A stretch of DNA of 64,000 nt from positions 1 to 64,000 of the IMG/VR virus record IMGVR_UViG_3300047362_000301; one strand, written 5' to 3'. Each line of letters starts with the position of its first letter. Position 1 is the stretch's first letter. This DNA comes from a virus. The translations under genes were made by a program, and so were the position numbers. The notes beneath the pieces are model-generated. The model searched no databases, was not told the DNA's origin, and saw nothing but the letters and a program-made list of their open reading frames with translations. Below are positions 1-64,000 of this stretch, one piece after another.

Positions 1-544
1 AACAATACTGATCATTACAGAAACCGTACCAGAGATCATTAGAACGCATCACAACTGACATATTTAGTTTATTGTTTAATACTGTAAACTGAACCGCATA
101 AGTACATGGAGTATCTTTAGCATAGTAATGATGTTCTTTACCATCATATATACTTATTGCCGCGTGTCTAGTATTAGGATTATCCTTAAGCTTTGCAACT
201 ACATAATCTAATTGATAGTTGCGTTCCCATTGCCAACCGTAATTAGATCTTACTTCATTATTACCGTCGACCATTCGTTGCCATATCTCAGGCACTCTAC
301 CATATATCTCTCCTAACTTATCTACATTAGGATCACCTGATAAGTACCATTGCCATTCAGCTTCAGCATATTCTTTATTCCATTTTCTGTGATCAGCTAA
401 TATATTGTTATCTAAAGGTTTTTCAATATAAAAACCTATATTAAACAAAGCCATTGTGTTATCAAACTTAACACCATCCCACATAATCTTTGGAAAAAAA
501 TAATTAAAAGCATCACTTGCTGTTTGAAATTTTGTTTTTATCAT
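1..544 (-). CDS. dCMP hydroxymethylase-like (thymidylate synthase family), 3' end outside window
   Basis: The first 181 residues of a thymidylate synthase-superfamily enzyme; the gene runs off the left edge. The catalytic cysteine is in DTPCTYAVQF (C147) and the phosphate-binding motif is MRSND (R167-D170). The residue 31 after the catalytic Cys is Asp (D178 in YGFCND). In thymidylate synthase this position is the Asn that reads the uracil ring; in phage T4 dCMP hydroxymethylase it is Asp179, also 31 after Cys148, in GFRND. The stretch RSNYGWQWERNYQLDYV also resembles T4 gp42 (NSNYGW...YAQYD). The likely reaction is dCMP to 5-hydroxymethyl-dCMP in the nucleotide pool. Start is the ATG at 544, which overlaps the upstream gene by 32 bases. 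A dCMP methylase or an unusual thymidylate synthase are the alternatives. Confidence 0.75.
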   Translation of the reverse strand, partial: MIKTKFQTASDAFNYFFPKIMWDGVKFDNTMALFNIGFYIEKPLDNNILADHRKWNKEYAEAEWQWYLSGDPNVDKLGEIYGRVPEIWQRMVDGNNEVRSNYGWQWERNYQLDYVVAKLKDNPNTRHAAISIYDGKEHHYYAKDTPCTYAVQFTVLNNKLNMSVVMRSNDLWYGFCNDQYC

Positions 545-4424: not shown

Positions 4425-5192
4425 CTACAGATAATCAAGTACTTGCGAGTGATCTACATTATCAATTAGTTTATCTACAGCTTGCTTTTTAAGCTCTGAA
4501 ACACGTACATAAGCACTGCTTCCTTCGATGTTTAATATCTCTGCTATTTTATTAGCTGAATGTTTTTCACAGTCTAATCCATAGCTTAATCTTAACACCT
4601 CATATTCTTTTTCATTTAAATGAGTTTTTAATAAACCAGTTAAATAAACGTTTAATAAACCTATATTATATGGCTCTGATTTATCAGCAATTTGATAGAT
4701 CATAGACTCTTCATCATCAGTATTTTTAGGTTTATCATCAATAGATAAAAACATACTATTAAAAAACATAGCAACCATCTTTTGATCTTTACCATTGTTT
4801 TTACGTATTTCATTAAGTTTATGCTCAGGTATTCTTATATCGCCTCTGTTTATATCAACAGCACGTCTTATACCACCTTTAATACGTTTAGATAAAAAAG
4901 ACTTTAATGTTTTTTCTTGATCATCTGATTCACTTAATCTAACCCAGTCTATTTTTCTAATAGCTTTAGTTAAACTTAAATTACCTTCTTGTATAAGATC
5001 ATTAATACTCATAACACCTGATGCTTGCTGTGTTGTAGAGAATTTACGAGCTATGTTTTCTACTAATAGCATAAATTTCCATTGCAATTGTTCCTGACTT
5101 AAATATTGAACATCAATATCTTCTATTAGTTTTAGTTTAATTATTAAATCGTTTTTATAACGAATATAATTAGGTATATTATATTTTTTCAT
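4425..5192 (-). CDS. RNA polymerase sigma factor, sigma-70 family
   Basis: A 255-aa protein with the sigma-70 family plan. Region 2 contains INDLIQEGNLSLTKAI (core binding and -10 recognition), followed by FLSKRIKGGIRRAVD. A region-3-like segment includes RIPEHKLNEIR. Region 4 near the C-terminus (LNEKEYEVLRLSYGL, then SANKIAEIL, SAYVRVSELKKQAVDKL) is a helix-turn-helix for the -35 element. It probably redirects host RNA polymerase to phage promoters. The seven-copy element at 8.1-12.6 kb and the late control region are candidate targets. It overlaps the upstream HTH gene by 14 bases. Confidence 0.82.
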   Translation of the reverse strand: MKKYNIPNYIRYKNDLIIKLKLIEDIDVQYLSQEQLQWKFMLLVENIARKFSTTQQASGVMSINDLIQEGNLSLTKAIRKIDWVRLSESDDQEKTLKSFLSKRIKGGIRRAVDINRGDIRIPEHKLNEIRKNNGKDQKMVAMFFNSMFLSIDDKPKNTDDEESMIYQIADKSEPYNIGLLNVYLTGLLKTHLNEKEYEVLRLSYGLDCEKHSANKIAEILNIEGSSAYVRVSELKKQAVDKLIDNVDHSQVLDYL

Positions 5193-5945: not shown

Positions 5946-6306
5946 ATAATTTAATTTTTACGTTATTCCATTTACCTCCCTTCAATGTCTCGTCGACCAG
6001 GAAGTCTATTCTATTAGTCCATCGTTTGTTCATTCGATCTCTTATGACCCAAAGGCCATTCATTTTACCTGCATTACTAACAACCACTAACTTGTTCATA
6101 GTGAAGCCTTTACCTTCAAGATCCCGAGACACAGCAATTATTCTGTGTGACTCAGGATTGTTCATATTGATTTTAAAGTTTGTAGCTGTTCTATCAGGCG
6201 TACTGTCTGTTTGCTTGATGGTAGCGTGATATATAGTTGCCGTTACTGTCAAGTCTGACGTCGAGATCGTCGACATCAAAAGGGTACTCAGTATAAGGTT
6301 TTTCAT
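5932..6306 (-). CDS. Exported 3D-domain (double-psi beta-barrel) protein
   Basis: A 124-aa protein with an N-terminal hydrophobic stretch (MKNLILSTLLMSTIST) that looks like a short signal peptide or anchor. It is followed by a body resembling the 3D/RlpA-type beta-barrel: VTATIYHAT near the start, GLWVIRDRMNKRW and RIDFLV near the end, where Asp residues of the family lie. Related domains occur in lytic transglycosylases and other cell-wall proteins. It may act on or bind peptidoglycan. It overlaps the next upstream gene by more than 100 bases in a different frame, which is unusual. Confidence 0.6.
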   Translation of the reverse strand: MKNLILSTLLMSTISTSDLTVTATIYHATIKQTDSTPDRTATNFKINMNNPESHRIIAVSRDLEGKGFTMNKLVVVSNAGKMNGLWVIRDRMNKRWTNRIDFLVDETLKGGKWNNVKIKLYEYN

Positions 6307-6763
6307 CTTTATTAATTATAGATTTTTTATCGTTAATATAATAATTCCAATAAGCTTTTAAACTGTTCCAAGTTACTTTATATTCATCAGGCATACATTG
6401 TGGAGGCATTGTAAAATGACCATTTTGCATACCCTCAGGAGGATTTAACAATACTTTAGCACATTTAGTTATACTTAAATGCTTTTTATTGTAACGTTTA
6501 GTATATTCCTCACCAAGCGCCATCATATAATCATATAACCAAAAATACGTTTGCATATTTTCTCTTGCCCATTTTGTTGAGGGATGATTATAATGTGCTT
6601 TACGGTAAGGAATATAACTACCGTCATACTCATACAACTCAGCATAATGATGATGAGCTGTACAGAGCATTTGTGCTGCTTCGAGTATCATCTTAACTTT
6701 ATGTTTGTCATAATGATAAGCGGCAGCTTTATTCGGGTCAGGGTGTAAATAAAATATATTCAT
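6194..6763 (-). CDS. Conserved phage protein, possibly pyrimidine-dimer glycosylase-related
   Basis: A 189-aa protein beginning MNIFYLHPDPNKAAAYHYDKH, then KMILEAAQMLCTAHHHYAE. This opening is familiar from many marine phages. I believe it is distantly related to the pyrimidine-dimer DNA glycosylase (Pyr_excise) family, but I cannot confirm that from sequence alone. Many His, Tyr and Trp residues suggest a metal-binding or base-binding pocket. Its 3' end is read through by the start of the 3D-domain gene in another frame (113-base overlap). Confidence 0.6.
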   Translation of the reverse strand: MNIFYLHPDPNKAAAYHYDKHKVKMILEAAQMLCTAHHHYAELYEYDGSYIPYRKAHYNHPSTKWARENMQTYFWLYDYMMALGEEYTKRYNKKHLSITKCAKVLLNPPEGMQNGHFTMPPQCMPDEYKVTWNSLKAYWNYYINDKKSIINKDEKPYTEYPFDVDDLDVRLDSNGNYISRYHQANRQYA

Positions 6764-24607: not shown

Positions 24608-26164
24608 ATGTCAAATGCAATTGTAAAAAATCTGAACTTTGGTTCGGATGCTAAAAACAATGTGTTTGCTGGTATTACAAAACTTACACAAGCCGTTAGC
24701 TCCACACTAGGAGCTAGTGGCAAATGTGTTATGTTAGAAGATAGTACTGGTCAACCTATTATTACAAAAGATGGTGTAACTGTAGCTGAAGCTATTACAC
24801 TTCTTGATCCTGTTGAAAACATGGGAGCAACATTACTTAAACAAGCCGCAAAAAAAACTGTTAGTGAAGCAGGTGATGGAACCACTACAGCAACCGTATT
24901 GGCTCATGCTATACTAAGTGAAGCATACAAAGTAATAACAAAAGAAAACTCAAGAGAAGTAAAAGAAAGTATACTTACGGCTACAAACAAAGTAGTTGAT
25001 TACTTAGATTCTATAGTAACACCAGTAGATGGTGATATGATAGATCAAGTTGCTACAATATCTACAAATAATGATCCTATACTTGGTAAAATTATTGCAG
25101 ATGCTTTTAGATCAGTTGATCAAACAGGTGTAGTGATGCTAGAGGTTTCTGATTTACCAGAAACTAATTTTGAAACTATTGATGGTGTACAATATGATAG
25201 AGGATTAAAAAATATACATTTTGTAACTAATCAAGATACTAAAACAGCTGAACTAGATAAACCTTTAGTTTTAATTGTAGAGTCAGAGGTTGAAAATGTA
25301 AGAAAAATACAAAGTGTTTTAGAGTATGCTATAAAGAATAAAAGAGCATTGCTTATTATTGCTGATGTTGATCAACAAGTTATGTCAGCTTTAGCAATGA
25401 ACAAAATAAAAGGTAATATTAAAGTAAATGTTATCGATGCACCTATTTATGGTGTAAATAAAAAAGAAACACTAGAAGATTTAGCGTTACTTACAGGTGC
25501 TACAGTTATCAATGAAGATCTTGGAGATGATATTGATTTAATACAACCTGAACAACTTGGTGAATGTAAGAAAACAATAACTAGTGAGCATGAAACCATA
25601 TTGCAAGTTCATGAGGTGAATAAAGAAGTCAAAGATTTAATTGAAGATATAAAAGCTAAACTTAAAACAGCTAAACACCCAGGTATTGTAGTTAATAATG
25701 AAAAAAGATTAGCTAGGTTATCAGGTAAAGTTGCTGTTGTAAAAGTTGGTGCTAATTCCGAAGTTGAATTAAAAGAAAAACGTGATAGAGTTGAAGATGC
25801 TATCTGTGCTACTAAAGCTGCTATTAAAGAAGGTATTGTACCTGGTGGTGGTATTGCTTTATTAAATGCATCACAAGAAATAGATACTTCAAACTCTTTA
25901 GAAAAAATACTTTTAAGAGCTATTAAATCTCCTTTCAATACAATACTTGCTAATGCTGGTATTAAAAATGAAAAGTTTTTTAATCAAGAAGGTAAAGGTC
26001 TAAACGTTGTTACAGGAAATATGGTAAATATGATTGAGTCAGGGATTATTGATCCTTTACTTGTCACAAAAAGTGCATTAAAAAATGCTAGCTCTGTGGC
26101 TAGAACTATTTTATCAACCGATTGTGTAATCAATAATCTTAGAATTAATGAAAGCAATAGGTAA
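24608..26164 (+). CDS. groEL: Chaperonin GroEL, phage-encoded
   Basis: A 518-aa GroEL-family chaperonin (cellular forms are about 545 aa). The ATP-site signature is AGDGTTTATVLAHAIL (D90-T94), preceded by ITKDGVTVAEAI and followed, near residue 415, by VPGGGIALLNA. The apical-domain helix residues (DRGLKNIHFVTN) are present. The Gly-Met-rich C-terminal tail of bacterial GroEL is missing; the protein ends NLRINESNR. It overlaps groES by 17 bases. It probably folds phage capsid or tail proteins. Confidence 0.93.
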   Translation: MSNAIVKNLNFGSDAKNNVFAGITKLTQAVSSTLGASGKCVMLEDSTGQPIITKDGVTVAEAITLLDPVENMGATLLKQAAKKTVSEAGDGTTTATVLAHAILSEAYKVITKENSREVKESILTATNKVVDYLDSIVTPVDGDMIDQVATISTNNDPILGKIIADAFRSVDQTGVVMLEVSDLPETNFETIDGVQYDRGLKNIHFVTNQDTKTAELDKPLVLIVESEVENVRKIQSVLEYAIKNKRALLIIADVDQQVMSALAMNKIKGNIKVNVIDAPIYGVNKKETLEDLALLTGATVINEDLGDDIDLIQPEQLGECKKTITSEHETILQVHEVNKEVKDLIEDIKAKLKTAKHPGIVVNNEKRLARLSGKVAVVKVGANSEVELKEKRDRVEDAICATKAAIKEGIVPGGGIALLNASQEIDTSNSLEKILLRAIKSPFNTILANAGIKNEKFFNQEGKGLNVVTGNMVNMIESGIIDPLLVTKSALKNASSVARTILSTDCVINNLRINESNR

Positions 26165-26408
26165 TAATTTAATAGTGGACATGACAAAACAAGGTGTCTC
26201 TGAAACCAAAGGCGGTTTGTTTTTAGCAGAAAAACAACGAGAAGATATAAGATATGCTGAGGGTACTGTGTTGTCAGTAGGCTCTAGTGTTGTAGGGATT
26301 AAAGAAAATGATGTTATTTATTTTGATAAAAACAACGCACATCAAATAGAAATTAAAAAAGAAATATATCAAGTTGTTAACATAGCACACGTAGTTGTTG
26401 TGTTATGA
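26148..26408 (+). CDS. groES: Co-chaperonin GroES, phage-encoded
   Basis: An 86-aa GroES-type protein with the roof and mobile-loop region (TKQGVSETKGGLFLAEKQRE), the strand GTVLSVGSSVVGIKENDVIYF and the closing strand around NIAHVVVVL. It starts inside the last codons of groEL and its stop overlaps the next ATG (ATGA). In bacteria groES precedes groEL; here the order is reversed. Confidence 0.88.
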   Translation: MKAIGNNLIVDMTKQGVSETKGGLFLAEKQREDIRYAEGTVLSVGSSVVGIKENDVIYFDKNNAHQIEIKKEIYQVVNIAHVVVVL

Positions 26409-31906: not shown

Positions 31907-32133
31907 TGTCATCTGTTATTAGAAAAATTAGCATTGGTTCTGATTATAAAACCGATGCAATGCATTATTCTTTGACCCAGTCAGTATATGGAGGTCATAC
32001 TATATCTCATATACTCTTTGATACAAAAGATAATTCTTATAACATTTACATTAAAAAAAACAACGAGGTATTGCCGTGGAAGAAATTTAATTCTAACATG
32101 GCTATATCTGTTGAGTATGATTTAGAGTATTAA
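31906..32133 (+). CDS. Hypothetical protein, 75 aa
   Basis: MSSVIRKISIGSDYKTDAMHYSLTQSVYGGHTISHIL..., a small alpha/beta protein of a type often seen near phage terminase genes. TAATG junctions on both sides. Function unknown. Confidence 0.5.
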   Translation: MSSVIRKISIGSDYKTDAMHYSLTQSVYGGHTISHILFDTKDNSYNIYIKKNNEVLPWKKFNSNMAISVEYDLEY

Positions 32134-32738
32134 TGAAAAGTTTATTTGATTTTATCGTTGAGCCCTACGGCCAGCGATATAATAATAAAGTAAAGGTAGG
32201 TGACAAAAGCCTTATAATTAACACTCAAGTCGAAACTTTTAAAGCTGTAAATAATATAGCAAAAGTTATAGAAGTGCCTTTATCATATAAAACACCAGTT
32301 AAAAAAGGTGATTTAATAATGATTCATCATAATGTATTTAGAAGATGGTATAATATGAGAGGTGAAGAAAAAAATAGTAAATCGTATTTTAAAGACGGTT
32401 TATATTTTGTACAACAAGATCAAGTTTATTTATACAAAAATAAAGACAAATGGTTGTCATTTGGTGATAGATGTTTTGTTGCACCACTCAAAGATAAAAT
32501 TGAAATACATAACGTTTTAGAACAAAATCTTATTGGTGTATTAAAATATGGTAATAGTGCGTTAGAAGCGCTAGAAATAAGCGAGGAAGATGTTGTAGGT
32601 TATAAACCTTTTGGTGAGTATGAATTTATTGTAGATGGTAAGCGCTTATATTGTATGAAATCAAATGATATTGTAATTAAGTATGAACGTCAAGGAAACG
32701 AAACAGAATATAATCCTAGCTGGGCACAAAGCAGTTGA
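32133..32738 (+). CDS. Tandem GroES-like co-chaperonin candidate, 201 aa
   Basis: The second half (SFGDRCFVAPLKDK, LIGVLKYGNS, SEEDVVGYKPFGEYEF, LYCMKSNDIVIKYE) follows the order of GroES motifs: opening strand, G-x-V-x-x-x-G, V-x-x-G-D-x-V-x-Y and the closing S-D-I strand. The first half (AKVIEVPLSYKTPVKKGDLI MIHHNVFRRW, LYFVQQDQVYLYK) shows the same pattern once more. So it looks like two fused GroES barrels, near twice the size of GroES. A substrate- or capsid-specific cap for GroEL is the inferred role. Confidence 0.6.
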   Translation: MKSLFDFIVEPYGQRYNNKVKVGDKSLIINTQVETFKAVNNIAKVIEVPLSYKTPVKKGDLIMIHHNVFRRWYNMRGEEKNSKSYFKDGLYFVQQDQVYLYKNKDKWLSFGDRCFVAPLKDKIEIHNVLEQNLIGVLKYGNSALEALEISEEDVVGYKPFGEYEFIVDGKRLYCMKSNDIVIKYERQGNETEYNPSWAQSS

Positions 32739-52179: not shown

Positions 52180-55100
52180 ATGCCTTTTACAGAAGAAGAA
52201 ATAGCAAACATGTTTACTGACACTGCGCTTGTAGAAGCTCAAGAAGAAAAATGTCCTGAAGGTTTTGAAAAAGATAATGTTACTGGAGAGTGTATACCTA
52301 CTGATTTAAAGATTTCGCCAGATTTTGATCCTCAAGAAGGTCTTCAAGACATGGTAAACTTAACAGACACATTAAAAAAAGGACCTGATGCGGTTGAATC
52401 TATAGAGATACAAGATGTAGAAAAACCTTTAGTTCCAGATATAAACTTTAGTGTTGCAACAGATTGGGGTTTAGATTTTATTAAAACAACGTTTGATAGA
52501 CAATATAAAGAAGGATATATAACAAGCGATATAGGTTACGCTAACAATTTATTAAATACAGAATTAAAAGATTATACACCTGAAGTATTACAAGAATTTT
52601 TTGGTTTAGAAATTTTAACAGATGAAAATAATAAAGAAATTGAAAATATAGCTAAAACAAAAGGGTTAGCTGTTTTTAATAGCTTAATGAAAAACAATCC
52701 TACAATAACAGATAAACTAATTCCTGCTACTTTTGAAAAAATATCACCATTATTAGAGGCTGAAAAATTAAGATTACAAAAACAATACACAGGAGAAAAT
52801 GCTGCAAAAGCAATAGAAGAATATGGGGTGTTTTTTAATAAAACTTTAAATAACGAATTAAATAAAAACCCAGTTTTTAAACAAATACTAGAAGCTAATT
52901 TAAGTTTAGCTGAAAAAACAATAGCTGAAAGTATTAGTAAATTAGGAAAAGAAGCATTAGATATAGAGGATATAGGTGATTTAGAAACAGGCGTAAGAAG
53001 AATGTCTAGATATTTAAAAGAATATGCTTTAATGACTAAAGGTTCTATTTCAGCTGGTAAATTTAGAGCGTACAATGATCAAGTTGAAAAAGATTTATCT
53101 AATGCGGAAAAATATGGTTGGACGGATGATACGGTTGTATATTTAAGAAAAGGAAAAGATCAAGGTAATCAAATAGATGGAGATGTTATTCCAGAAGTTT
53201 TAGAAGGTAAAAAGCAAAGAATACCAGGAGAACAAAACGCATATATAAAAACAACATGGAAAGAAGCTAGAGAATATCAAAAATCACTTGCTGATCCTCA
53301 AATGCAAAAAGGAGTAAGTGAAATTAGCGAAGCACAAAGAATTAAAGATGCAACAACTTATTTTGATAAAGCTGATTTAACAGACGGAATAACTTTTAAA
53401 GATTTTACTATTGGTTTAGGTGAATTTTTACCTCAAATACCTTTAGGTATTTTAACCGCTGGATCAGGAATTATATTACAAGAAACTGCAGGTAACTATG
53501 TAGATAATTTATATGCAATAGCTAAGCAAGACGGTTATGGAGATAATCCTACTGGCGATGAATTGTTTAAAATAATAGAAGAAAAAAGAGATAGAAAAGG
53601 TTTAGCTTTTTCTACCGGTATTCCACAGGGAGCTATGGAGCTTTTTGGTTTAAAGAAGTTAACTAAATTAAGTAAAGAACTTATTAAGAGTGTTCCTAAA
53701 GGAGCTTTAATAAGAGGTGGAATGAATAATTTTAAAAATGTTTTAAATGGTTTAGCAGGCTCTAAAGTTAGAAAACAACTTGCATATTCAGCTTTTTATG
53801 AAGGCTTAACTGAAACTGGACAAACGCTAGGTAGTCAAACATCTCAAACTATAGCTAGTGGTGGAGAAAGTTATTATAATTTTGACGAAATATTAAATGC
53901 AGCTGGTATGGGTTTTGCTTTAGGAGGTTTTTTACCTTTTGCAGGCGGTGCAGCAAGACAATCTTTAACAGAATTTAAAAATACAGCTTCTATTATAGCT
54001 GGTAAATTTAATCCTAATCATGTTGAAAATATATTTAACATGCAACAGTCTCAGGTTGAAAAAGATTTTAACGAGGGGCTTATATCTCCTGAAGAAAGAA
54101 GAGAAAGGCTTATAGCGTTAGGAGAAGTAAGAGCCGCTGGTGCTCAACTTCCTAAGTTTCAAATATTTAACCCTATTACTAATGCTTTTAGTAAGATGTT
54201 AGGAAGAGATGCTTCTTTAACAGGAAATATTGGGGAAAATTTAAGTCCAGAAGATAGAACTGAAGCTATAAAATTACTTATTGAACAGCAGAGATTAAAA
54301 AATTCTAAGAAAAATATTAATCCTGATCTTGTTGATCCTAAAATAAACGAAAGATTAAAAGAAATACAACAACGTTTACAAAATATAGTTATAAAAGATG
54401 AAATAAATTTAGCCAAAGAAAAAGGTAAAAGCATGACGGCTAAAGAAGATTTAAAAATAACTAAAAAATTTGCTGAAATATTAGGTGTTGAAGTAAATGA
54501 TAAGCTAGCAAATGACCCTGTAGCTTTTCAAAAATTTCTTGATGAAAATAAAATTGAGTTTAATATAGAAACCGATAGTGGATTTGTAGGTCCTGATGGT
54601 AACACTTTATATATTAATTTACCTACTATAAAAAAGAATGGTGTTAACTTTAAAACAGCTTCACATGAACTTCTTCATGTTATGCTTTATGAAGAAATAC
54701 AAAAAAATCCTACAAAATTTCAAGCAGATGTAGATAGTTTAATTGATAGTTTAAGTCCTGCTCAAAAAGAAACTTTAAACTTATTAATGCAACCGTATCT
54801 AGAGCAAACAATTGAAATAGAGGAAAATGGAAAAAAAGTACAAGCCCCTTATTTAGAAGTAAGGCCTGATGAATTTATTACTCAAATGTGGGAAGGTGGT
54901 TTGTTTGAAAAAGATCCTTCGTTATTACAAAAATTTATAGATTTTATAAAAAATATTTTTGGTAATGTTTTTGGTTCTAAAGTTGATGTAAACATTGATA
55001 ACCCAAATGATTTAAAATCTTTTTTTAACGCTTATAAAGAAAGTTATAATACTGGTAAGTTATCTCAATTTATTATAAATAAAAATAACCAAAGAACAGG

Positions 55101-58100
55101 TGTAAAACCTAGTTCGATAGCTAAATCTAGCGACCAAACCGCATTTCAAGCTATGGATCAAATAGTTCCTTTAGGCACAACAAAAGATCAATATTTAAAA
55201 TTAAATATAAATGAAGCATTTAATGCTACTATGCCTGGCAATGTTATATCTAACTATATTAGCTCAAAATCAACAAGTCCACAACAATTTAATGAAAATA
55301 TAGCAACTATTAGAGATAGATTAGCTAATTTTAATCCTGACGCTAAAAGAAAAAATGACAAAAATTCAACTCCTATACAATTTAGTGAGTTTGTTGTTGC
55401 TAATACTAATTTTAGTAAACTTGTAGCTAATAAAAAATTAGCAATAGAAGCTGATAAAAAAGCACAAGAAGATAGAATAGATGATGGAACATTGCAAATA
55501 GCTAATCCTAAGTCTACTTCTTCTAGTAAACCAGAAATAGACAAGCGTATTATATATCCTGATGCTGTTTTACCTAAAGCAAATGAATTTAGTAATAAGT
55601 TTTTGACTGATACTAAGTTTAATTTAAGCACTTTATCAACAGAAGAGTTGTCTAATTTAACATATAAAACTTCTAAAATAATTGCGCCGCAGGCTTTTGC
55701 TGATATATGGGGATTACCTTTAAAAGTAATAACTCAGAAAAACTTTAATCTAAGTGACATTAAAAATATTAGAAGAGTACAATCTTGGATAAGAACCAAT
55801 GCAATCACTCTTATTAAACTTTTACCAGAAGGTAATACTGATGTAAAAATTTCAGATTCTAAAATAAAAAACAAAGATGGTACTTTTAGAAAAATAAAAA
55901 GAGGTGGAGAAAGCTTAGCTTTACCTGATAATATAAGAGACAATCCTGTTTTTTATACTCAACTATTTAAACCAGATGGAACACCTGTAAAAATAGATAG
56001 TGAAACATTAAATGCTAAGGGTAAAAGTAAAAGTAAAAGTAATCAGTACAGAAAAAGACCTGACATAACTAGAACTCAATTTTTAAAAGCATTTGGTGTA
56101 ACAGATAATAAATCTGATAAACAGTTTGATGTAAGAGAAAGCGAAGCTCAATCAATAAAAGGTTTGTTAGAAATTGTAGGCAGAAACATTACTAATTATT
56201 ATGCAGAACAAGATTTAGATACTAGACCAGACATATCTGCAAGTAAAAAAGCTATTTCAAAAGTAAAAATGAGATCAGGAGCTAGTAAATTAGCTTTTAG
56301 TAGTGAATACCTTAAAGATTTTACTAATGATTTTCAGTTAATGAATGGTGTTTCACCAAAAGACGTTATTCCAATGTACGTTAACACTGGTAAAGAAGAT
56401 TATTCTAAATACAAATATGGTACTAAAGATCGTGATGCTTACGCTGCTGATTTAATAAAATATGGAGGAGAATATATAGGAAATCTTTTTCAAGAAGATT
56501 TAGGTGGAAGAGCTTCTTTTTTTAATTCATCTAATTTTGCAGCAGGAAGTAAAAATAGACTTGGTTCTACTTATTTTTATAGCAATGAAAGAAAACAAAT
56601 TATAAAAGAAATTAAAGAAAGACAAAAACAAAGAAAAAAAGAAGGTAAATTTGTAAAAGAATGGACTACAGAAGAAAAAGAAAAAATTAAAGTAGCTCTT
56701 AGTAATAAAGATTCTTATTTTGATACTCGTAAAAAAGGTTGGTTTGAAAATAAAACCAAAAATTATGAAGGTGGTTTATTAATTTTAAAAATGTTTTCAG
56801 ATATAGTAAACGAAAATCCTGAAGCTATAAATATGGTAACTGCGTTTTTTAATTCTGCTGTTTCTTCAACTGGTCATTTTTGGAGACAGTTATCTTTTCC
56901 TAGAATGTTAGATAATGATTATTTAAATTTTGTGAGACTAAAAAACAAAGCTAAAAGAGATTTTGAAAACAATGTTATAAGTGAAGAAAAATACGAAGAA
57001 TTAACAAATAGAACAAATGGAAAATATGCTGTTATAAAAGAACACATGTGGCAGCAAAATGCGGCTTTAGATTTTATTTTACCTGCAATGTTTGACGGTA
57101 CACTAGAAGAAAATTACAAATTTCTAGAATTAAATTATTATCAAGCAGGTATTTCTTTAACAAATGACAACAAACTAAAAGATACAGAAGGTAAATACGG
57201 TCCTAAATACAATTATGGAGAAAAAGAAGTTGCTCCTTTTAAAGAAGGTTTAATTAAAGCTATTTTAAGTGGAAACCCTAATGATGCTATAGAATCTGTA
57301 ATTAGATATTTAATGGCTGAAGTTAGTAATAATAATGGTGGCTTTAATTTAAACACGCTTACTTTTGACAATAAATCTATAGCTGAAATATATAATCTTC
57401 AGCTAAATTCAAACCAAATAAATAAACAAAGCATCGTTAATCAACAATTGTTAGCTAGACTTGTAGTTGAAAAAGCTATAACAAAAGAAAAAGCTAGACA
57501 ATTGTTGCTAAATGGAATACCTTTAACTCCTGAAATAGCGCAAACTTCTGTTATAAACAACAATAAATTAAAAAGCACTCCAATACCTTTTAGTAAAGAT
57601 ATAGTTTTTACTAATAAAAATGTATTAGATAGGATGGCTTATTTAGATGATCAGGCTAATAAAGCTAGAGTAACTTTTAGTAAAGACCAAGATTTAAATA
57701 AAGAATTTAACGAAATTATAGAAAAAGCAACCGGTATTGGTAAAGAAAAAAGATACGGTCAAACTAAAGCTAGAGCTGTTGGTGCGGATAAAGGTAGATT
57801 TGATTTGTTTGGCATACCACCGTCTGCTCAAGATTTTGTAGGTTTAACTAGATATTTTGCTGGTAAAGGAAAACAAGGCGATGCAACAATAGCTTGGGTT
57901 AAAAAGAATTTTTTAGATCCATTTGCAAGAGGAAATATAGATATATCTAACGCTAGGGTTGCTTTAAATAATGATTTTAAAACTTTAAAAAAATTATTAA
58001 ATATTAGTCCTAAAAATTTAAGTAAAAAAATAACTGGAGAACCTTACACTGTAGGTAATGCTGTTAGAGTTTACACGTGGGTTAAGCAGGGAATGACTAT

Positions 58101-59679
58101 TCCAGGATTATCTAAAGCTGATCAAAAATTATTGGTTGATTTTGTAGAAAACGACGCTAATCTTATTGTTTTTTCAGAACAATTAATTGCAATAAATAAA
58201 GAAAATGGTTATCCTAAACCACAAAGTGGGTGGTTAGCGGGTACTATAAGTACAGATTTACTTGCTAGTTTAAATAATGTTGTAAGAGCTAAGTATTTAA
58301 AACAATGGCAAACAAATGTAGATAATGTGTTCACAGAAGAAAACATGAATAAACTAGAGGCGGCTTTTGGCACTGGTTATAGAGAAGCTTTACAAGATAT
58401 ACTTGGTCGTATGAAAACTGGTAGTAACAGAGGTTTTAAAGGCGATACATTAACTGGTAGATTTATAGATTGGATCAATGGTTCTGTAGGAGCTATAATG
58501 TTCTTTAACAGTAGATCAGCTGTGCTACAAACTATATCAGCTGTTAATTTTATTAATTGGTCTGATAATAATATATTAGAAGCAGCTAAAGCTTTTGGTA
58601 ATCAAAAACAATATTGGAAAGATGTCATGGAATTGATGAATTCTGATTATTTAATTGAAAGACGTAATGGTTTAAAAATAAATGTTGCTGAAGCTGATAT
58701 TGCTGAAATTGCTGCTGAATCTAAAAATAAAGCAAAAGCTTTTATAAGTAAAATATTAAAATTAGGTTTTTTACCTACACAAATAGCAGATAGTTTTGCT
58801 ATTGCATCTGGTGGCGCTACATTTTATAGAAATAGATTAAAATCATTATTAAAAACTGGTATGTCACAAAAAGAAGCTGAAGCACAGGCTTTTTTAGACT
58901 TTAGAGAAATAGCAGAAGAAAACCAACAGTCTAGTAGACCTGATAGAATTAGTAAACAACAGGCTGGTCCAATGGGACGTATTATATTAGCTTTTGCTAA
59001 CACCCCGGCACAGTATGCAAGAATAATGCAAAAAGCTGCTAGTGATCTTAAGAATCGCCGAGGAGATGATAAAACAAATATATCTAAGATTATATATTAT
59101 GGAGCAATACAAAATGTAATATTTAACGCTTTGCAACAGGCTTTATTTGCTATAGGTTTTGGAGATGATGAACCTGATGAAGAAAAGTTAAACAAAAAAT
59201 ATACAGGCATTGTAAACGGTATGGCTGATTCATTACTAAGAGGGTTAGGCTTTCATGGTGCTGCTGTATCAACTTTAAAAAACACTATAATTAAATTAGC
59301 GGAAGGAGCTGAAGCTCAAGATGCCGCTATAGAATTATTAGATTTTTCACCACCTGTATCTTCTAAAATAGGAAAATTAAGATCTGCAGGTAGAACATGG
59401 GACTGGAATAAAAAAGAAATAAAAGAAAAGGGTTGGTCATTAGATAACCCTGCTTGGCTTGCTATTGGACAAGTTATTAGTGCTTCTACTAATTTACCTT
59501 TAGATAGAGGGATAAGAAAATTACAAAATTTAAAAGATGCGTCTGACTCAGAAAATGCTGAATGGATGAGAATAGCAAACGTTTTAGGTTGGCAAAAATG
59601 GGAATTAGACTGGGCTAAAGATAAACCTAAAAAAAGAAAAACAAGAAAAAAATCTTCTAAAAAAAGAAAAACATTTTAA
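52180..59679 (+). CDS. Giant internal virion/ejection protein with zincin motif, 2,499 aa
   Basis: The largest gene of the window, nearly twice T7 gp16 (about 1,320 aa). A zincin motif HELLH is at residues 829-833 in FKTASHELLHVML, suggesting a metallopeptidase domain. There are Gly-rich hydrophobic segments around 410-460 (PLGILTAGSGIILQETAG) and 570-590. The C-terminus (STNLPLDRGIRKLQNLKD, VLGWQKWELDW, Lys-rich tail) matches giant ejected proteins of marine podoviruses. It is likely stored in the capsid and ejected with the DNA; domains in the middle remain unassigned. Confidence 0.75.
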   Translation: MPFTEEEIANMFTDTALVEAQEEKCPEGFEKDNVTGECIPTDLKISPDFDPQEGLQDMVNLTDTLKKGPDAVESIEIQDVEKPLVPDINFSVATDWGLDFIKTTFDRQYKEGYITSDIGYANNLLNTELKDYTPEVLQEFFGLEILTDENNKEIENIAKTKGLAVFNSLMKNNPTITDKLIPATFEKISPLLEAEKLRLQKQYTGENAAKAIEEYGVFFNKTLNNELNKNPVFKQILEANLSLAEKTIAESISKLGKEALDIEDIGDLETGVRRMSRYLKEYALMTKGSISAGKFRAYNDQVEKDLSNAEKYGWTDDTVVYLRKGKDQGNQIDGDVIPEVLEGKKQRIPGEQNAYIKTTWKEAREYQKSLADPQMQKGVSEISEAQRIKDATTYFDKADLTDGITFKDFTIGLGEFLPQIPLGILTAGSGIILQETAGNYVDNLYAIAKQDGYGDNPTGDELFKIIEEKRDRKGLAFSTGIPQGAMELFGLKKLTKLSKELIKSVPKGALIRGGMNNFKNVLNGLAGSKVRKQLAYSAFYEGLTETGQTLGSQTSQTIASGGESYYNFDEILNAAGMGFALGGFLPFAGGAARQSLTEFKNTASIIAGKFNPNHVENIFNMQQSQVEKDFNEGLISPEERRERLIALGEVRAAGAQLPKFQIFNPITNAFSKMLGRDASLTGNIGENLSPEDRTEAIKLLIEQQRLKNSKKNINPDLVDPKINERLKEIQQRLQNIVIKDEINLAKEKGKSMTAKEDLKITKKFAEILGVEVNDKLANDPVAFQKFLDENKIEFNIETDSGFVGPDGNTLYINLPTIKKNGVNFKTASHELLHVMLYEEIQKNPTKFQADVDSLIDSLSPAQKETLNLLMQPYLEQTIEIEENGKKVQAPYLEVRPDEFITQMWEGGLFEKDPSLLQKFIDFIKNIFGNVFGSKVDVNIDNPNDLKSFFNAYKESYNTGKLSQFIINKNNQRTGVKPSSIAKSSDQTAFQAMDQIVPLGTTKDQYLKLNINEAFNATMPGNVISNYISSKSTSPQQFNENIATIRDRLANFNPDAKRKNDKNSTPIQFSEFVVANTNFSKLVANKKLAIEADKKAQEDRIDDGTLQIANPKSTSSSKPEIDKRIIYPDAVLPKANEFSNKFLTDTKFNLSTLSTEELSNLTYKTSKIIAPQAFADIWGLPLKVITQKNFNLSDIKNIRRVQSWIRTNAITLIKLLPEGNTDVKISDSKIKNKDGTFRKIKRGGESLALPDNIRDNPVFYTQLFKPDGTPVKIDSETLNAKGKSKSKSNQYRKRPDITRTQFLKAFGVTDNKSDKQFDVRESEAQSIKGLLEIVGRNITNYYAEQDLDTRPDISASKKAISKVKMRSGASKLAFSSEYLKDFTNDFQLMNGVSPKDVIPMYVNTGKEDYSKYKYGTKDRDAYAADLIKYGGEYIGNLFQEDLGGRASFFNSSNFAAGSKNRLGSTYFYSNERKQIIKEIKERQKQRKKEGKFVKEWTTEEKEKIKVALSNKDSYFDTRKKGWFENKTKNYEGGLLILKMFSDIVNENPEAINMVTAFFNSAVSSTGHFWRQLSFPRMLDNDYLNFVRLKNKAKRDFENNVISEEKYEELTNRTNGKYAVIKEHMWQQNAALDFILPAMFDGTLEENYKFLELNYYQAGISLTNDNKLKDTEGKYGPKYNYGEKEVAPFKEGLIKAILSGNPNDAIESVIRYLMAEVSNNNGGFNLNTLTFDNKSIAEIYNLQLNSNQINKQSIVNQQLLARLVVEKAITKEKARQLLLNGIPLTPEIAQTSVINNNKLKSTPIPFSKDIVFTNKNVLDRMAYLDDQANKARVTFSKDQDLNKEFNEIIEKATGIGKEKRYGQTKARAVGADKGRFDLFGIPPSAQDFVGLTRYFAGKGKQGDATIAWVKKNFLDPFARGNIDISNARVALNNDFKTLKKLLNISPKNLSKKITGEPYTVGNAVRVYTWVKQGMTIPGLSKADQKLLVDFVENDANLIVFSEQLIAINKENGYPKPQSGWLAGTISTDLLASLNNVVRAKYLKQWQTNVDNVFTEENMNKLEAAFGTGYREALQDILGRMKTGSNRGFKGDTLTGRFIDWINGSVGAIMFFNSRSAVLQTISAVNFINWSDNNILEAAKAFGNQKQYWKDVMELMNSDYLIERRNGLKINVAEADIAEIAAESKNKAKAFISKILKLGFLPTQIADSFAIASGGATFYRNRLKSLLKTGMSQKEAEAQAFLDFREIAEENQQSSRPDRISKQQAGPMGRIILAFANTPAQYARIMQKAASDLKNRRGDDKTNISKIIYYGAIQNVIFNALQQALFAIGFGDDEPDEEKLNKKYTGIVNGMADSLLRGLGFHGAAVSTLKNTIIKLAEGAEAQDAAIELLDFSPPVSSKIGKLRSAGRTWDWNKKEIKEKGWSLDNPAWLAIGQVISASTNLPLDRGIRKLQNLKDASDSENAEWMRIANVLGWQKWELDWAKDKPKKRKTRKKSSKKRKTF

Positions 59680-62813: not shown

Positions 62814-63061
62814 GATATAAAATGTTTTAGCCAAGCAATAAGGCCATTAATATTTAAAGCAACTAAGTTCCATTGCTTACGCGATGCTGTTTGTACTCCA
62901 ACACAAATAAAACCAACTATATATAAAGCTGGTTCTATTGTCCATTGTGCTGCTACTAGAAAACCTGCTCCCATATAACCTATACGAGTAGCTAGTCTTT
63001 CACTAGCGTTTAGTTTTCTTTTTCTTTCGATTAAAAATCTTAGTATTTTGTATTTTACCAT
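62810..63061 (-). CDS. Small membrane protein between RNR genes, 83 aa
   Basis: A basic start (YKILRFLIERKRKLNASER), then hydrophobic segments (IGYMGAGFLVAAQWTI, PALYIVGFICVGVQTA), probably two membrane helices. ATGGTAA overlap with the end of nrdB. Function unknown; an insertion within the RNR operon. Confidence 0.6.
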   Translation of the reverse strand: MVKYKILRFLIERKRKLNASERLATRIGYMGAGFLVAAQWTIEPALYIVGFICVGVQTASRKQWNLVALNINGLIAWLKHFIS

Positions 63062-64000
63062 ACATCGTCGAAGTCTTCGCCTTCATTTGCTTTACTATAG
63101 TCAGTCGGCCTAATAGCGAAAAAATCAGTGTGAGTGTGACCCCCAGTAAGATGGTCGAACCAAGCCATTTTGTCAATTGACTTTTGGTCATATTCAAATT
63201 TAAATTTTCCTTCTGCTTTATAGCCCAGTTCTTTAAGTTTATCACCTGTACGTTTTTTAATAAAATGTTTTAGGTCATATTCTGTTATTCCTTCAATATC
63301 ACCCATTTCAAATAACTTACTTATATAAGTCATTTCAGCATTATGCATAGTTAAAGCTGCATCGTATATATGCTCTTTACATTCTTCTTTTAAACCTGGT
63401 ACTTGCGAACACATGTGTCTGAATAATTGACAACCCATTTTACTATGTAATGATTCATCTCTTACAGACCATTTCATTTGTTGGCCAATACCTTTTAATA
63501 AGTTTCTCATTTGAAAACTATAAAGCACAGCAAATGCTGAATATAAACTAACGCCTTCTGCAAATGCAGAAAATGTAGCTAATGATTTACCTATACCTAC
63601 AGGATCATTACCTTCATAAGCTACAAGATTATCAAATCTAGCAGCTGTAGCTGGTTCATGTAAGAAAGCTTCATAGTCTTCAAGACCTAAGGTTTCATTT
63701 AAATAACTATATGCTACTGCGTGAATCGTCTCTTGCGATCCAAACATCATAGCCATCTGTTGTATCTCGTGTTTCGGAAACCAAGATACAACTTTTTGCG
63801 TCCAGTAGTCGGAGACAGCGCATTCGGTTTGTGCGAAGCCGAGTAGTATGTTTCCAACAAGGTTTTTTTCTTTATCATTTAATTGTTCGTTCCAGTCTTT
63901 AAGGTCGCCTGACATAGGTATCTCAGTATGTAACCAAAATGCTTGCGCTTGTTTTAACCAACCTTCAGTGTAATACTCAGGGTATTCAAAAGGCTTGTAC
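63055..64000 (-). CDS. nrdB: Ribonucleotide reductase class I, small subunit (5' end outside window)
   Basis: The radical-bearing subunit, read through the right edge: residues encoded at 63916-64000 (EYPEYYTEGWLKQAQAFWLH) continue the frame, so the ATG at 63915 is internal. Iron ligands and radical Tyr are visible: HTEI, then QETIHAVAY (Glu, His, Tyr), FAEGVSLY (Glu), and DESLH (Glu, His). The C-terminal tail ends NEGEDFDDVW, the acidic tail that docks on NrdA. It supplies dNTP precursors with nrdA. Confidence 0.93.
   Translation of the reverse strand, partial: YKPFEYPEYYTEGWLKQAQAFWLHTEIPMSGDLKDWNEQLNDKEKNLVGNILLGFAQTECAVSDYWTQKVVSWFPKHEIQQMAMMFGSQETIHAVAYSYLNETLGLEDYEAFLHEPATAARFDNLVAYEGNDPVGIGKSLATFSAFAEGVSLYSAFAVLYSFQMRNLLKGIGQQMKWSVRDESLHSKMGCQLFRHMCSQVPGLKEECKEHIYDAALTMHNAEMTYISKLFEMGDIEGITEYDLKHFIKKRTGDKLKELGYKAEGKFKFEYDQKSIDKMAWFDHLTGGHTHTDFFAIRPTDYSKANEGEDFDDVW

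Follow-up and report, generated by a model that had tools for sequence, protein, structure and literature searches.

The gene at the left edge of the analysed stretch very probably encodes a tail-less dCMP 5-hydroxymethylase of the thymidylate synthase (TS) superfamily, as judged from its specificity residues and predicted structure. The stretch, referred to as the window, comprises bases 1–64,000 of the 66,393-bp virus record IMGVR_UViG_3300047362_000301, and the source phage is marine. Confident dCMP hydroxymethylases are thus extended from T4-like phages to a large uncultured phage clade, in which they are paired with a MazG-type pyrophosphohydrolase. The enzyme itself is of a known kind; no description of such a setting was found.

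Completion of the Gene Across the Record Ends

The hydroxymethylase open reading frame occupies positions 2–544 on the minus strand and is open at the left edge of the window. The two ends of the record share 348 bp, which points to a genome of about 66.0 kb (66,045 bp) with either a circular join or terminal redundancy, and this overlap allowed the truncated gene to be completed. The open frame resumes at the right end of the record and stops at position 65939, yielding a protein of 216 amino acids. An independent contig, L004, carries the entire gene unbroken, 99% identical and with the same neighbours, which confirmed the join of the record ends. The features of the locus are listed below, in window positions unless the record is named.

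1–348, no strand: terminal overlap, same stretch (98.9% identical) at record 66046–66393
1–544, minus: dCMP-hydroxymethylase-like gene, N-terminal 181 codons; the last 35 codons are found at the opposite end, as far as record position 65939
513–800, minus: small conserved ORF (95 aa) upstream of the hydroxymethylase, matching only a PHROG of unknown function
791–2515, minus: primase/helicase (574 aa), part of the same gene block; its Walker A motif is the only credible one among the listed ORFs of the genome
60872–62605, minus: ribonucleotide reductase large subunit, same block across the circular join
63055–64000, minus: ribonucleotide reductase small subunit, the gene running to record position 64032
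record 64441–64926, beyond the window: resolvase-like nuclease (DUF1064)
record 64907–65182, beyond the window: small ORF
record 65172–65939, beyond the window: MazG/PRA-PH pyrophosphohydrolase, its start codon touching the hydroxymethylase stop

Several other features of the genome were noted. A GroEL-like chaperonin and two GroES-like proteins (24608–26164, 26148–26408 and 32133–32738) are encoded within the structural-gene block, which ends with a single ORF of 2,499 aa (52180–59679). A sigma-70-like factor of 255 aa (4425–5192, minus strand) was found, in the genome comparison, only in gene-bearing genomes. The 189-aa protein encoded at 6194–6763 (minus strand) weakly resembles pyrimidine-dimer glycosylase (Pfam, 1.4e-6); it is kept in four of five complete gene-bearing genomes, and no counterpart turned up in the 25 relatives that lack the hydroxymethylase, 19 of which are partial. 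It is a possible partner in base modification.

Active-Site Residues

The preliminary description, prepared from the window sequence, had reported a catalytic Cys147 followed 31 residues later by Asp178, and this was borne out in the translation of the minus-strand ORF, which reads ...DTPC(147)TYAVQF...MRSNDLWYGFCND(178)Q. When aligned with E. coli ThyA, Cys147 and Asp178 correspond to Cys146 and Asn177, and when aligned with T4 gp42, to Cys148 and Asp179. The completed protein matched PF00303 (E=4.7e-24), and a sequence search of the PDB returned a T4 dCMP hydroxymethylase chain first (2.7e-19), then MilA and then thymidylate synthases. Asp178 and the key specificity and hydroxymethylation residues are invariant in 88/88 sequences (the window protein and 87 relatives). 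Given the PF00303 match, the top-ranking PDB chain and the invariance of Asp178, the Cys147/Asp178 pattern is not a chance occurrence.

All 14 active-site positions of T4 gp42 that were compared are identical in the window protein, namely Glu60, Trp82, Ser94, Tyr96, Arg123, Asp145, Cys148, Thr149, Arg168, Ser169, Asp171, Asp179, His216 and Tyr218 in T4 numbering. In window numbering, they include Glu63, Trp88, Ser100/Tyr102, Arg126, Asp144, Cys147, Thr148, Arg167/Ser168, Asp170 and Asp178.

In the T4 enzyme, which is without the TS C-terminal tail, cytosine specificity is set by Asp179, and Ser-x-Tyr together with an Asp three residues before the Cys has been proposed as the hydroxymethylation signature (PMC6400193). 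Enzymes acting on deoxyribose substrates are marked by Ser169/Arg123 rather than Ala/Lys (PMC5175136). In the MetaGPA study, the residues that ranked highest for association with modified-cytosine contigs were those at positions 147 and 177 (PMC8670742).

The window protein combines the TS-superfamily fold and the catalytic Cys and Glu with the cytosine-recognition Asp (Asp178, T4 position 179), the hydroxymethylation signature (Ser100, Tyr102 and Asp144; 88/88) and the deoxyribose-preference residues Ser168 and Arg126. It ends with HLYNDKITK at residue 216 and has no TS-type C-terminal tail. At the positions where CMP hydroxymethylases (MilA/BcmA) have Ala176 and Lys133, it carries Ser and Arg. 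Among the sequences compared, thymidylate synthases have Asn177 and His147 (Val147 in phi3T), and dUMP hydroxymethylases have Asn at both the 147 and 177 positions.

A dCMP 5-methylase would share the cytosine specificity, with the intermediate reduced by hydride transfer to give 5-methyl-dCMP. Phage XP12 has been reported to have such a dCMP 5-methylase route to 5-methyl-dCMP. In the cited literature, an Asn-to-Asp exchange in TS at the position equivalent to Asp178 yields a dCMP methylase. However, the window protein lacks the C-terminal tail, which seals the TS site for hydride transfer, and it carries the Ser100/Tyr102/Asp144 signature, whereas E. coli TS has Leu for the Asp and no Ser; the sequences compared on this point included no natural phage dCMP methylase. 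A methylase activity is considered improbable.

Phylogeny and Predicted Fold

The hydroxymethylase was matched by 525 viral contigs. A tree was calculated from 118 sequences after removal of the four specificity columns; it gives no settled root or deep branching order. The window protein grouped with Bacteroides phage BF503P2 in a clade of 30 rows (SH-aLRT 100). Thymidylate synthases and dUMP hydroxymethylases formed separate clades (SH-aLRT 99 each), and the T4-like enzymes, which have the same residue code, formed a further one. The predicted dCMP 5-hydroxymethylase of the window sits, in this tree, in a clade distinct from that of T4. The preliminary description had called for such a phylogeny, holding that a position firmly within thymidylate synthases would speak against its reading; the protein fell outside the TS clade.

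Two members of the family stood out. The second hydroxymethylase paralogue of BF503P2 (L087:5109-5915) is extremely divergent (tree branch 4.2) and has kept the specificity residues. The gene of Agathobaculum phage AB434P2 at L088:2860-3522 is annotated as a deoxyuridylate hydroxymethyltransferase, yet it has cytosine-type residues (Asp, Thr).

The L004 copy was modelled with AlphaFold2 at a pLDDT of 95.9. Among PDB fold matches, MilA was the best (TM 0.90), and both MilA and T4 dCMP hydroxymethylase were ahead of TS by E-value. The dCMP-hydroxymethylase reading of the preliminary description is supported by the specificity residues, the signature, the missing TS tail, the tree and these fold matches.

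The model also matched 9iqc (TM 0.86), a protein of similar length described in the PDB as a riboflavin-dependent monooxygenase with dCMP and FAD, which would suggest a flavin-dependent dCMP monooxygenase producing 5-hydroxy-dCMP for later glycosylation. However, five of the compared positions set 9iqc and its close homologue from Acinetobacter phage AM101 apart from T4: Trp82 is replaced by Ala, Ser94 by Thr, Asp145 by Glu, Asp171 by Asn and Tyr218 by Phe. The window protein agrees with T4 at all five. Judging from these two sequences, Thr94, Glu145, Asn171 and Phe218 (T4 numbering) would define monooxygenase activity; the window protein has Ser, Asp, Asp and Tyr there, and this activity is highly improbable. 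An ordinary thymidylate synthase supplying dTMP, to which the names of the PF00303 and PHROG matches and the failure to find ThyX in the genome might point, is scarcely credible in view of Asp for Asn177, Thr for His147, Asp for the hydrophobic residue (Leu) at −3, the missing tail and the exclusion from the TS clade by the tree.

MazG Gene Pair and Remaining Pathway Steps

Modification-transferase genes had been expected to lie to the left of the window. The stretch was found to contain the MazG-type pyrophosphohydrolase, the resolvase-like nuclease and ribonucleotide reductase, with no recognisable glycosyl- or carbamoyltransferase or dNMP kinase.

A MazG homologue was detected beside the hydroxymethylase in 79 of the 80 loci from close relatives. 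In more distant phages, MazG was located within 400 bp of the hydroxymethylase in 52/80 loci, and there it is often a separate gene encoding about 100 aa. The catalytic EExxE/ExxD motif of the MazG-type enzyme is invariant, and the model of the protein weakly resembled human DCTPP1 and the S-2L MazG-like enzyme in fold, with no Foldseek match below E=0.001. A GIY-YIG-like appearance of its N-terminus had no Pfam backing and is conjectural. The adjacent MazG-type pyrophosphohydrolase may serve as a dCTPase. Asp177, position 147 and co-occurrence with PF01503 were associated with modified-cytosine phage contigs by MetaGPA (PMC8670742).

Further pathway components were sought in the genome. No kinase-like P-loop was recognised in any selected ORF of at least 50 aa, and 20 contigs from the wider clade contained no member of the DNMK family. 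Family A DNA polymerase was found neither in the whole 66.4-kb record nor in 19 gene-bearing relatives, and no other DNA polymerase was detected among the scanned ORFs. These ORFs, which did not include some large ones of the structural block and some small ones, likewise yielded no hmC glucosyl- or other transferase; the PF02543 carbamoyltransferase, DHFR and ThyX were not found in the genome.

With no kinase, polymerase or hmC transferase recognised, a T4-style pathway is incomplete. The T4 kinase gp1 acts on HMdCMP, not dCMP, according to a database record note. As T4 needs its own kinase gp1 and none was recognised here, the conversion of hm-dCMP to hm-dCTP is the weakest step. Family A polymerase is missing although genes for primase/helicase, ligase, an Erf-like annealing protein and exonuclease are present; the cultured relative phi38:1 does encode a family A DNA polymerase.

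Relatives, Host and Palindrome Statistics

The terminase relatives comprise phages of Flavobacterium, Cellulophaga, Maribacter and Tenacibaculum and one uncultured podovirus, and PF00303 was absent from all six of these that were tested. It was also absent from 19/20 uncultured terminase relatives; the remaining one, G039, carries a TS-family gene and did not enter the comparison. No TS-family gene was present in the cultured relatives elemo, Panino, phi19:3, phi38:1 and Gundel, and the comparison thus turned up no cultured representative of the clade.

Contigs that carry a copy of the hydroxymethylase are binned with Flavobacteriaceae, Saprospiraceae and Sphingobacteriaceae, and also with Aliivibrio, Halieaceae and Verrucomicrobiales, so this mixture of bins is not enough by itself to identify the host. 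A Bacteroidota host is suggested mainly by the terminase relatives.

Phage DNA is often purged of restriction sites, and modified cytosine should relax this purging. Palindromes were counted in samples of up to 40 kb per genome, and those with an observed-to-expected ratio (O/E) below 0.15 were taken as nearly absent. For 4-base palindromes containing C, O/E ranged from 0.90 to 0.97 in 20 genomes of the gene-bearing clade, compared with a median of 0.66 (0.54–1.00) in the 25 terminase relatives that lack it (Mann-Whitney p=1.6e-7, treating non-independent genomes as independent). The contrast is essentially that of one clade with its relatives, and a common host trait could explain the same pattern. 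Palindromes without C differed slightly (medians 0.98 and 0.94, respectively), and 6-mer palindromes separated the two groups less cleanly than 4-mers.

In distant gene-bearing lineages, for which there was no matched control, the median O/E was 0.86, often with a shortage of GATC, and a nearly absent palindrome other than GATC occurred in 5/20. The T4 control (40 kb) gave an overall O/E of 0.80, driven by GATC and CATG, and none of its palindromes was nearly absent.

A genuine dCMP hydroxymethylase could merely drain host dCMP/dCTP and leave the virion DNA unmodified, in keeping with the fact that no kinase for hm-dCTP and no phage polymerase or transferase were recognised. Against this, a nearly absent C-palindrome was seen in none of the 20 clade genomes, compared with at least one in 23/25 relatives without the gene; a drain-only role is regarded as unlikely. 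The absence of strongly avoided restriction palindromes thus forms a genome signature that separates the gene-bearing phages from their terminase relatives, and it provides moderate support for modified DNA. The virion DNA of the phage is probably cytosine-modified, and the earlier suggestion that it may contain 5hmC is plausible.

Proposed Mechanism and Module

The enzyme class, specificity residues and conserved gene pair follow from sequence and predicted structure; the activity of the enzyme, the substrate of the MazG-type protein, the kinase step and the modification of virion DNA are inferences. By homology to T4 gp42, Cys147 would attack C6 of dCMP, and Asp178 would hold and protonate cytosine N3. 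A one-carbon unit from methylene-tetrahydrofolate would then be transferred to C5, and a water molecule activated by Asp144 would add to the exocyclic methylene, giving 5-hydroxymethyl-dCMP and THF. The MazG-type neighbour probably hydrolyses dCTP to dCMP, feeding the hydroxymethylase and keeping plain C out of DNA. Hydroxymethyl-dCTP would be made with a host or unrecognised kinase and incorporated by the host polymerase, resulting in cytosine-modified virion DNA that resists restriction.

It is tentatively proposed that a minimal module of hydroxymethylase and MazG-type dCTP hydrolase might suffice for fully cytosine-modified DNA in a large uncultured phage clade, presumably infecting Bacteroidota, in which neither an hm-dCMP kinase nor a DNA polymerase or hmC transferase is recognisable. 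Handling of hm-dCTP would then have to fall to the kinase and replicative polymerase of the host, unless a phage protein that escaped recognition fills the gap. The novelty lies in this possible module, which would operate with neither a phage kinase nor a phage polymerase; should the DNA be modified, the question arises of how hm-dCTP is made and polymerised in these phages.

Comparison with Known Systems

T4 gp42 (PDB 1b49, 1b5d, 6a9b) shares with the window protein 14/14 active-site positions, the TS fold and the lack of a TS-type tail, and in both phages the gene lies near replication genes. The T4-like sequences are only about 26–32% identical to the window protein (alignment A1) and form a separate clade, and T4 gp42 has 246 aa compared with 216 aa for the window enzyme. 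The T4 gene neighbours beta-glucosyltransferase, whereas its counterpart here neighbours MazG, and no gp1-like kinase or DNA polymerase was found in the window phage.

MilA CMP 5-hydroxymethylase (PDB 5jnh, 5b6d) is the best fold match (TM 0.90) and has the cytosine Asp. It differs in having Ala176/Lys133 for ribose, in place of Ser168/Arg126 in the window protein, and in its extra helical C-terminus.

The TS family of MetaGPA modified contigs (PMC8670742) is similar in Asp177, in a differing position 147 and in co-occurring PF01503. Those contigs are often linked to a 5hmC carbamoyltransferase, whereas PF02543 is absent in the window phage.

The nearest named phage protein, with 47% identity, is the deoxycytidylate 5-hydroxymethyltransferase of Bacteroides phage BF503P2 (WAX07047), to which this function is assigned by annotation only. 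It belongs to the same clade and has the same residue code, but BF503P2 is a different, 53-kb phage, which carries a second, highly divergent paralogue.
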